From positions 1,206,501 through 1,270,500 of the forward strand of contig NZ_CP045354.1 of the NCBI RefSeq assembly GCF_009363435.1: DNA of 64,000 bases, read 5' to 3'. The position numbers were made by a program, and so were the translations under genes. Source of the stretch: Labrenzia sp. THAF82 (GTDB lineage: Bacteria; Pseudomonadota; Alphaproteobacteria; Rhizobiales; Stappiaceae). Under the pieces are notes generated by a model. That model ran no database searches, had not been told where the DNA came from, and saw only the letters and a program-made list of their open reading frames with translations. This document shows, piece after piece, positions 4,166-57,670 of this stretch. Each line of letters begins with the position of its first letter. The first letter of the stretch is position 1.

Positions 4166-4249
4166 TGCGATACGTTGTATTGCATCGCCCTCCTTGGGCG
4201 TTTCCTCCCTAGACTCGGGCCGCCTCATTTGAGTGCGGCCTCTTTTTTT
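4166..4249 (+). ncRNA. mmgR: mmgR-like trans-acting small RNA (alpha-r8 / Rfam suhB family)
   Basis: About 84 nt with the architecture of this alphaproteobacterial family: a first stem GCGATAC/GTATTGC (4167-4183), a second stem CGCCC-TCCTT-GGCG-type (4186-4200) with CCUCCU in its loop, an unpaired UUUCCUCCCUAGAC stretch (4201-4214), and a strong terminator hairpin with U7. The unpaired UUUCCUCCCU is the conserved core of the family and is complementary to Shine-Dalgarno sequences. In Sinorhizobium meliloti mmgR limits polyhydroxybutyrate accumulation. The neighbouring inositol-phosphatase gene fits the location that gave the family its suhB name. Exact ends are estimates. Confidence 0.7.
4217..4249 (+). 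terminator. Terminator of the small RNA
   Basis: GGCCGC then CTCA-TT-TGAG, a single extra T, then GCGGCC and TCTTTTTTT. It forms the 3' end of the small RNA and faces the stop codon of the convergent amidohydrolase gene. Confidence 0.88.
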
Positions 4250-4257
4250 GTCCAGGG

Positions 4258-5874: not shown

Positions 5875-5949
5875 GGGCGTGTAGCTCAGCGGGAGAGCAC
5901 TTCGTTGACATCGAAGGGGTCACAGGTTCAATCCCTGTCACGCCCACCA
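5875..5949 (+). tRNA. tRNA-Val (anticodon GAC)
   Basis: A full cloverleaf of 75 nt: acceptor GGGCGTG/CACGCCC, D arm with AGCTCAGCGGGAGAGC, anticodon stem CTTCG/CGAAG with loop TTGACAT (anticodon GAC), T arm ACAGGTTCAATCCCTGT, discriminator A and an encoded CCA. It reads GUC and GUU valine codons. A hairpin with a weak T run follows about 90 bases downstream. Confidence 0.97.
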
Positions 5950-36934: not shown

Positions 36935-37477
36935 TTAGCCGAGATTTCCGAATGCCGCGTGCAGCTGGTTGATTTGCGAGGCGACCGGGTTGTCGTTGTT
37001 GGCTTCCTCGGTCTGCGGTTCGTCACCGCCGCGGTAGAGCATCTTGTCCAGGTGCACAACGCGTTCCTGCAGGCGTGTCGAACGACCGACCAGGTCGCGC
37101 AAAGTTTCGGGAAGTTCGTCCCATGACGGTCCGCCGGTTGCGCTGCTGAGCTTGTCCAGGCGCACCTTGTTCTTTTCGCTGCCAGCCTGCTCGCGAGACA
37201 TTTCGCCCTCGTTCACAGCTCTTTGGAGCAAAAGCCAGGATGCAAGCTGCATCAGACGCGTTGTCAGGCGCATGGATTCTGTTGCGTAGGCCAATGATGC
37301 CGGACGGGGCAACTCCTTGGCTTCCTCGCGGCCGGAGCCATCCAAATACATGGCGGTCTCTTCAACCAGTGACATGCCTTCCTGAAACAGGGTCTGGAAA
37401 TTGTCAGAACTGGCAAGATGATGAGCGATGTGTACGGTGCCAATCGCTTCTTCGGCTGTTTTGATGTCTTCCGTCAT
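36935..37477 (-). CDS. rcdA: ClpXP adaptor RcdA (DUF1465)
   Basis: A 180-residue, all-helical protein. FQTLFQEGMSLVEETAMYLD, then ATESMRLTTRLMQLASWLLL, then QRAVNEGEMSREQA match RcdA of Caulobacter, the adaptor that with CpdR and PopA links CtrA and other proteins to ClpXP at the cell pole. The last 30 residues (from GGDEPQTEEANND) are low-complexity, and a disordered C-terminus is known to matter in the family. The monocistronic transcript ends at the terminator just after the stop. The cpdR gene is encoded 31 kb to the left in this window. Confidence 0.93.
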   Translation of the reverse strand: MTEDIKTAEEAIGTVHIAHHLASSDNFQTLFQEGMSLVEETAMYLDGSGREEAKELPRPASLAYATESMRLTTRLMQLASWLLLQRAVNEGEMSREQAGSEKNKVRLDKLSSATGGPSWDELPETLRDLVGRSTRLQERVVHLDKMLYRGGDEPQTEEANNDNPVASQINQLHAAFGNLG

Positions 37478-37677
37478 AGGATTGCTACGCCTCAGTTACT
37501 CTCCCGGTTCGACTTGCATTTTTATCATTGCTTGTCCCGAAACATGTCATTTCGGGGCAGGTGTCCCTTTTTGGAACGATGCAGGTCTTCGTACCAACTA
37601 CTGAGCAATCTCCATGCCAAACTCGCTCAAATGTGGCCCTTAACCAGAACGGTATGAGGATACCATGAGCGTGGCCT

Positions 37678-37774
37678 AAAAAAAAAGAGCCGCACGGTTG
37701 CGGCTCTGAAGTCTTTAACAGGGAGGCGTCAAACAGAGTGGACAGGAGCCACTCACATCCAGATGACTGGATAT
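37678..37774 (-). ncRNA. Candidate small RNA with exposed anti-Shine-Dalgarno motifs
   Basis: Found in an otherwise empty gap (37478-37894). On the minus strand, TATAAA (37780-37785) is a good -10 (the -35 is weak) and would start an RNA at about 37774. The RNA then folds as ATCCAG-TCAT-CTGGAT; GAGTGG-CUCCUGU-CCACUC, with the CCU motif in its loop; an unpaired stretch containing GCCUCCCUG; and the terminator AGAGCCGCA-ACCG-TGCGGCTCT with nine U. This is the same plan as the mmgR-like RNA and as the alpha-r14/cuckoo group of Rhizobiales. I cannot assign it to one family. Confidence 0.6.
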
Positions 37775-37894
37775 ACAAATTTATACTTTGGAAAGATTAA
37801 TAAGAGGTAAACGAGTAAATTTTTACCTAGCTGATTTACCTTGTTAATCGTCTAGTTCTCAGATTTAGTTCAAAGACTGTAATAAATGCCAAGG

Positions 37895-38092
37895 CTATTT
37901 CTGAAAGAACGAGTTCGCCGCATCGCGAATAGTACCTCGTTGTTCGAGTTCTTTCTGCGTACGGTTAATTTCTTCCCGTAAGGCCTCTATCCGCTCATTA
38001 AGATCGTTTTCCGAATGACGTGAAAGATCCTCGCCCACGGTGATGGGGTCGGCCTCAGGTTTTTTGGGGACATCTTCGTCAAATAGGCTCAT
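37895..38092 (-). CDS. DUF1192 family small protein
   Basis: A 65-residue protein: SLFDEDVPKKPEADPITVGE, then DLSRHSENDLNERIEALREE, ending in RDAANSFFQK. The FDED start, LSxxSxxDLxERI helix and AANSFF end define DUF1192. The ATG at 38092 has GGGGAAGGAA upstream; longer in-frame ORFs extending to 38185 have no ribosome site. A predicted coiled coil occupies residues 30-55. Function unknown. It is divergent from the quinone oxidoreductase gene, an arrangement I believe recurs in rhizobia. Confidence 0.88.
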   Translation of the reverse strand: MSLFDEDVPKKPEADPITVGEDLSRHSENDLNERIEALREEINRTQKELEQRGTIRDAANSFFQK

Positions 38093-38241
38093 TGTTTCCT
38101 TCCCCGGAATGTGAGACGCAGGAACGACAAGGACCGGTTCAAAAAAGTTGGACACGTTCAAATCGGCCGATTGCCAATTTACCATAGTCCGGCCATCGAG
38201 CAGTGGACCAGTCCCAAAATGAACCAGAAGGAACGATCTTC

Positions 38242-57373: not shown

Positions 57374-57489
57374 ACACTGCTGGTTCGTGCTGTGGTTCTT
57401 TGAATTCAGTCTTCAAAATCGTTTGTATTGAATTCCATGCCGCTCTGGTAATTGCCTGAAGTCGGGTCTATATGCCGTAGTCGCGGCTG

Positions 57490-57670
57490 CCCGACACGTC
57501 AGGAACATTATCCCCGGGGCCTTACGCATTCCTTCGGGAGCTGTCCCTGCGCTGGGCCGTGGTCCGTTGCATACGGCGCCCACCTACTTTGTAGGTTCTC
57601 CGGGATTGCAGATCCAACGGTCGGACGGCTGCACCTTTCTATTCCAAGTGCCCGGCTACACTGGCCGGTA
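57490..57670 (+). ncRNA. ssrS: 6S RNA
   Basis: Lies in the 354-base gap between zapA and the 5-formyl-THF cyclo-ligase gene, the conserved place of 6S RNA. It contains GCCGTGGTCCGTTGCATACGG and CGCCCACCTACTTTGTAGGT (split here), the short helix ACCTAC-TTT-GTAGGT, and an opposing GCAGATCCAACGGTCGGACGGCTG arm that pairs with GGTCCGTTG. Such a long bulged duplex mimics an open promoter and holds sigma-70 polymerase in stationary phase. TATATG at about 57470 may be the promoter -10. The ends are estimates within about 20 bases. Confidence 0.75.

Follow-up and report, generated by a model that had tools for sequence, protein, structure and literature searches.

A BjrC1505 (RF02356) small RNA with a conserved CtrA-type box upstream of rcdA in Labrenzia sp. 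THAF82, a candidate anti-Shine-Dalgarno regulator

The present study analyzes a gap between two minus-strand genes in Labrenzia sp. THAF82, within a 64,000-nt stretch of DNA that we call the window (contig NZ_CP045354.1, positions 1,206,501 to 1,270,500). The gap is 417 nt long, close to the 400 bases given by a first-pass annotation made from the letters alone, and it separates a DUF1192 gene (37895-38092) from a gene starting at 37477. Within it lies a small RNA. The features of the locus, and the other RNAs of the window, are as follows.

37895..38092, minus strand: DUF1192 gene, upstream of the small RNA (PF06698, 55.8 bits)
37797..37811, minus strand: CtrA-type box TTTACCTCTTATTAA, TTTA-N7-TTAA, 7 of the 8 bases of TTAA-N7-TTAA, at the -35 position
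37780..37785, minus strand: -10 element TATAAA, 11 nt past the box, from column frequencies
37678..37774, minus strand: BjrC1505 small RNA (RF02356), from cmscan and fold, transcript about 95 nt
37757..37772, minus strand: 5' hairpin AUCCAGUCAUCUGGAU, AUCCAG..CUGGAU, 5 of 6 pairs changed on both sides
37736..37754, minus strand: second hairpin, GAGUGG..CCACUC, 4 of 6 pairs changed on both sides
37748-37743, minus strand: anti-Shine-Dalgarno (anti-SD) loop CUCCUG in the second hairpin, a loop that differs in other families
37718..37732, minus strand: core UUGACGCCUCCCUGU, including the second anti-SD motif CCUCCC
37726-37721, minus strand: CCUCCC, predicted to be exposed
37678..37707, minus strand: Rho-independent terminator, AGAGCCGC..GCGGCUCU plus nine U, stem at 37707-37686
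37605..37619, minus strand: sigma54-like element TGGCATGGAGATTGC, between the small RNA terminator and rcdA, from conservation
37487..37493, minus strand: Shine-Dalgarno region GAGGCGT of rcdA, a weakly supported candidate target site, complementary to ACGCCUC of the core
36935..37477, minus strand: rcdA (formerly DUF1465), adaptor for CtrA proteolysis (NF051867; PDB 3ctw)
4180-4255, plus strand: mmgR (RF00519, 62.8 bits)
5875-5946: tRNA, from cmscan
57481-57635, plus strand: 6S RNA (RF00013, 65.6 bits)

The small RNA locus is a full-length member of RF02356, BjrC1505, a catalogued family of uncharacterized function. A cmscan search of the whole window with Rfam 15 aligned positions 1-140 of the 140-position model to 37818-37680 of the minus strand with 109.5 bits against a threshold of 50, and the RNA, which the first-pass annotation had left unassigned and could not name, can now be given a name. 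The 140 positions of the model seem to take in about 45 nt of promoter, with the box and the -10 element; the start of the RNA itself was placed near 37772-37774 from the position of the -10 element. In the alignments, several 5' pairs within model positions 1 to about 45 are marked as non-standard. Other models at the small RNA remained under threshold, namely GcvB with 30.2 bits against 42 and mmgR/suhB RF00519 (alpha-r8) with 28.8 against 41, and membership of RF00519 was rejected on that score. This disposes of alpha-r8, one of the families put forward in the first pass; the others, alpha-r14 and AbcR, returned no row under those names at E up to 1 in 37400-38200, where weaker matches of suhB's clan are hidden. 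Rfam 15 presumably contains models for AbcR (alpha-r15) and NfeR1 (alpha-r14). Four Rfam matches in the window exceeded their thresholds, these being RF02356, mmgR, 6S RNA and the tRNA. The first pass had also counted two such RNAs in the window, and mmgR, which shares motifs with BjrC1505, is probably the second of them, since it is the only other Rfam match in the window that shares the plan; mmgR is, though, a known family.

The predicted fold of the small RNA has an energy of -38.4 kcal/mol compared with -20.5 for shuffles (z -5.62, with 0 of 200 shuffles as good), and the -10 box, two stems, CUCCU-type loop, CCUCCC stretch and nine-U terminator all lie on the minus strand where the first pass had placed them. 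Covariation among 42 aligned members from many families, collected by means of a relaxed version of the core UUGACGCCUCCCUGU, which is identical in all 42, showed 14 pairs changed on both sides versus 4.9 in shuffles, a number reached by 0 of 500 shuffles, and it backs the 5' hairpin, the CUCCU hairpin and the terminator. Variants of the core do occur (loci L160, L161, L168, L176, L177, L178 and L270). In the weak hairpin around CCUCCC, no pair with a change on both sides was found among the 42 members, and for this reason it was fair of the first pass to call CCUCCC unpaired. Because the CUCCU loop differs between families, the functional part common to all of them would seem to be CCUCCC with its flanking bases. 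The sequence mark of an anti-SD RNA is present, in that the CU-rich motifs CUCCUG and CCUCCC are both exposed in the predicted fold; the first-pass comparison with alphaproteobacterial RNAs that block ribosome sites holds for this layout and is partly right as to mechanism. A similar order of parts is found in MmgR, with a CUCC-loop hairpin followed by GUUU..CCUCCCU (GUUUCCUCCCU in the mmgR of the window) and a GCCGC-type terminator, and because of this common plan BjrC1505 and mmgR may be related or may share a mode of targeting.

The host genome has a single copy of RF02356. Of 61 genomes from the host genus and order, 58 have a match, the host's own included (56 over threshold), as do 40 of 385 genomes taken from the class (17 of them over threshold), both searches having used strict filters by which weak members were lost; 0 of 14 control genomes matched, Caulobacter vibrioides among them. 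A 39-base core pattern identified at least 119 stretches in named genomes, including Roseibium, Stappia, Bradyrhizobium, Afipia, Chelatococcus and Breoghania. Inspection by eye of genomes with no RF02356 match located variant RNAs upstream of rcdA that Rfam had missed (L268, TTGACGCCTCCCTGTTTTC; L270, GTTCCTCCCTGTTT), with a CtrA-type box that is perfect in L270 and 6/8 in L268, and because of these variants the family is taken to be wider than the model detects.

CtrA is a master regulator of cell division and polarity in Alphaproteobacteria. Its motifs are given as TTAA-N7-TTAA and TTAA-N7-TTAAC for Caulobacter and Hyphomonas in passages of PMC4287350 and PMC7200025. The sequence by which a CtrA-activated promoter may be recognized, TTAA-N7-TTAA at -35, is present in the window at 7 of 8 bases, a feature missed in the first pass, which had likewise not identified the neighboring gene as RcdA. 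Upstream regions share the block TTWAC-N6-TTAA. Within 100 nt, a box of at least 7/8 was present in 111 of 112 distinct upstream regions (29 perfect), compared with 9.6% of shuffles, among the core-pattern matches listed; these regions came from 119 listed core-pattern loci, 5 with less than 100 nt upstream having been left out, and as the set was found by the letters of the RNA core alone it carries no bias toward the box. When the genus and order loci that RF02356 had located were included, the box was present in 132 of 133 (30 perfect) versus 10.8% of shuffles, the core-pattern part again being the matches listed and the RF02356-found part being biased toward the box because the model spans the promoter. 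A further 29 loci, located by RF02356 and hence biased in the same way, represent 14 families, of which 12 lie outside the order; 28 of these loci have the box, versus 13.4% of shuffles, and 3 of 24 core-bearing loci, about one per family, scored below 7/8. When spacings of 0-20 were compared in the set of 133, 7 led; a spacing of 6 gave 96 and one of 10 gave 83 at 7/8 or better, neither with a perfect match. The layout is near-fixed, with the box at 0-14 and TATNAC at 26-31 in 146 distinct sequences that were selected for carrying a box of 7/8 or better and aligned on it, and the third box base is T in 87 of these 146, an imperfection shared by the box of the window. This puts the box at about -38 to -24 of the predicted start, the place of a -35 element. 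Boxes of at least 7/8 were rare in the 100 nt before start codons (rcdA, 7/134; DUF1192, 2/114; oxidoreductase, 1/113), and six places in the 64-kb window reach 7/8 of TTAA-N7-TTAA. The mmgR of the window differs from BjrC1505 in having no CtrA-type box upstream (best 5/8), and none was found at the 6S RNA (best 6/8). A CtrA gene scored over its model cutoff in 29 of 30 genomes.

The downstream neighbor, the "DUF1465" gene, is rcdA, with an NCBIfam equivalog match to NF051867 of 233.7 bits (cutoff 170) and a match to RcdA of PDB 3ctw at E 2.7e-40. RcdA and CpdR take part in ClpXP proteolysis of CtrA, according to passages of PMC2877005 and PMC7200025; for Hyphomonas, the latter describes RcdA as dispensable for CtrA proteolysis and rcdA as not CtrA-regulated. 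By coordinates, 24 of 30 RNA-bearing genomes have the RNA less than 400 nt upstream of an rcdA match and in the same orientation; the 30 were picked for having the RNA and comprise all 21 order members beyond the genus with a match and nine of the class's 40. The exceptions are G043, G045 and G052, with RNA and rcdA on different contigs, G101, with the two 42 kb apart, and G053 and G061, with no RcdA found. On the locus level, 157 of 173 loci have rcdA downstream in the same orientation; DUF1192, the less constant neighbor, precedes the RNA in the same orientation in 124 of the 173, counts that include the core-pattern matches listed.

Given these neighbors, it could be argued that the RNA is a piece of one of their transcripts. 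That it is a 3' UTR fragment of the DUF1192 mRNA with no promoter of its own, the case which the first pass had named as fatal to its proposal, would agree with the position of DUF1192 upstream in most loci, but is very improbable, as the box and -10 element recur at near-fixed spacing in other families where DUF1192 was not found. A less remote, though still unlikely, explanation is that the box serves rcdA and that the apparent small RNA is a leader, mostly stopped at the terminator, with read-through giving the rcdA mRNA. The constancy of rcdA just downstream on the same strand fits this explanation, as do statements in passages of published papers, i.e. a comparison whose cluster A is said to share conserved CtrA control of rcdA (PMC2877005), a CtrA motif reported upstream of rcdA in S. 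meliloti (PMC3616915), and several rcdA start sites, preceded by a possible CtrA site, in three agrobacterial lineages (PMC10469942). It does not fit the observation that the box is kept in all 12 RNA loci for which no rcdA was found in the flank (families f68, f28, f94, f91, f106 and f84), these loci being among the 29 further ones, searched with the window's RcdA as the only query and with one flank of just 165 nt; one of these box-bearing loci is from G061, the genome in which no RcdA at all was found. Nor does it fit the reverse comparison, in which rcdA loci with no adjacent RNA had a 7/8 box in just 3 of 15 cases within 300 nt, versus 21 of 24 with the RNA within about 105 nt, windows that differ in length. 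For this family-spread comparison 41 of 56 rcdA loci were used, the remainder of the 56 being weaker matches or fragmentary; one of the loci used lacked a usable start, and a sixteenth rcdA locus, L282, was set aside from the 15 because by coordinates it has a variant RNA. The conserved terminator also argues against a leader, as does an element before rcdA in Roseibium-type loci, TGGCA-N6-TTGC, which we take to be a sigma54-type motif; it is invariant in 29 aligned loci of this type, a loose pattern of it occurs in 55 of 154 loci (including the core-pattern matches listed), and it might give rcdA a promoter of its own. Sigma54 control of rcdA would be unusual. The box thus appears to go with the RNA rather than with rcdA, and we think it likely that the RF02356 locus is an independent small RNA gene with its own predicted promoter and terminator, for which read-through into rcdA is possible as a side role.

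With respect to targets, the Shine-Dalgarno region of rcdA is a weakly supported candidate. Among 117 distinct rcdA start regions (L001-L149, core-pattern matches listed), 53 carry GAGGCGT, 16 of these as GAGGCGTTAA, and 23 carry GGGGCGTTAA or GAGGGCGTTAA; GAGGCGT, GGGGCGTTAA and GAGGGCGTTAA are all complementary to UUGACGCCUC of the core. Duplex energies relative to shuffles in near relatives, a set which for rcdA is rich in Bradyrhizobium and Roseibium, gave a mean z of -1.16 for rcdA (n=130), -0.12 for DUF1192 (n=114) and +0.24 for the oxidoreductase (n=115). These numbers would support a positive feedback, the CtrA-activated RNA base-pairing at the ribosome site of rcdA and thereby reducing RcdA levels, with CtrA delaying its own breakdown as the outcome. 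We regard such a feedback as quite unlikely, since with about one locus per family the pairing is gone (mean z +0.05, 24 loci), and rcdA as a general target, suggestive in near relatives, was not upheld at that breadth. Start regions of ctrA showed no excess complementarity (mean z +0.27, 30 loci), nor did those of gcrA (mean z +0.41, from 20 of 29 loci, nine having no start-codon pattern match and L420 being left out). Somewhat more plausible, if doubtful, is a general anti-SD small RNA for nutrient transporters, resembling AbcR and NfeR1, with CtrA as one input of several. GGGAGGC seeds in the host genome precede start codons of an ABC-type permease, a proline-racemase-like protein and a TRAP-type permease (named by eye), and according to passages of PMC7143759 ABC transporters are over-represented among predicted AbcR targets, and most predicted NfeR1 targets encode transport proteins; against this, the seven GGGAGGC stretches inspected were picked for such seeds, and seed counts ignore that start regions are rich in GGAGG anyway. 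Across 41 genus genomes, no one conserved target with near-perfect pairing to the core was found. The core had one mismatch-free match per genome in these 41, identical with the RNA gene in all 37 compared (G445-G448 left out), and core matches with two mismatches recur in two or three genomes. The second hairpin had matches in 38 of the 41, the exact ones being the RNA gene where the RF02356 search places the RNA; one two-mismatch site recurs in G004, G006 and G007. Both rcdA, in close relatives, and transporter genes are candidate targets only.

Taken together, the locus is probably best read as a CtrA-activated, trans-acting anti-SD small RNA. Family membership, structure, the conserved box with its spacing and the linkage to rcdA are observed, and from them we infer binding and activation by CtrA, expression of the RNA and anti-SD action. 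Phosphorylated CtrA would most likely bind TTTA-N7-TTAA at -35 and switch the RNA on, and the RNA would thus appear while CtrA is active. The transcript would fold into two hairpins, the near-invariant UUGACGCCUCCCUGU and the terminator, and CCUCCC, with CUCCUG as well in the host's order, would pair in trans with Shine-Dalgarno regions of mRNAs and so block ribosome entry. On a broader scale, BjrC1505 could be an ancient CtrA-controlled RNA of Alphaproteobacteria, the "CtrA box upstream of rcdA" noted earlier in many lineages being its promoter and not that of rcdA, and CtrA could thereby control translation of a set of mRNAs which in at least some lineages includes rcdA; here the evidence leaves us evenly divided. 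If this were true, an RNA arm would be added to the CtrA circuit beyond Caulobacter, a catalogued and unexplained Rfam family would gain a testable function, and the conserved box upstream of rcdA would be read differently. The small RNA may then link the cell cycle to control of protein synthesis.

In the literature on CtrA with small RNAs or rcdA, as available in partial texts, no function, regulator or CtrA link for BjrC1505 was found; Madhugiri 2012, on BjrC RNAs (cited in PMC7143759), lies outside that scope. The accession RF02356 was not found in the literature searched, and in the portions covered BjrC1505 is a list entry for a Herbaspirillum genome. The conserved CtrA-type box of BjrC1505 and its link to rcdA would therefore seem to be new here. 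By analogy, the nearest precedent for a CtrA-linked BjrC1505 is CcnA of Caulobacter crescentus, which is described in part of PMC8959179 as lying at the replication origin and acting on ctrA and gcrA, with homologs in other families and none clear in S. meliloti; six CtrA-linked noncoding RNAs are reported for Caulobacter in a passage of PMC4287350. The neighbors of BjrC1505, DUF1192 and rcdA, and its lack of excess ctrA and gcrA complementarity would set it apart from CcnA, and RF02356 had no match in the Caulobacter vibrioides control genome. AbcR1/2 (alpha-r15) and NfeR1 (alpha-r14) also have unpaired CU-rich anti-SD motifs and repress mRNAs at the ribosome site (PMC7143759, in part). EcpR1 and GspR of Sinorhizobium are likewise small RNAs tied to the cell cycle and repress cell-cycle genes, but EcpR1, unlike BjrC1505, lies downstream of divK-pleD and has the motif UCCGCCGCAUCU, and GspR is known from Sinorhizobium only; the passages concerned (PMC4414408, PMC5928217) report no CtrA box in the promoters of either. 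The published descriptions, as far as these excerpts go, rule out EcpR1, GspR and PmaR as the same RNA.

As a separate observation on gene order, ctrA lies just about 30-90 kb from the RNA/rcdA locus in twelve genomes of several families picked by eye, G000, G003, G014, G017, G031, G041, G049, G051, G055, G069, G181 and G302.
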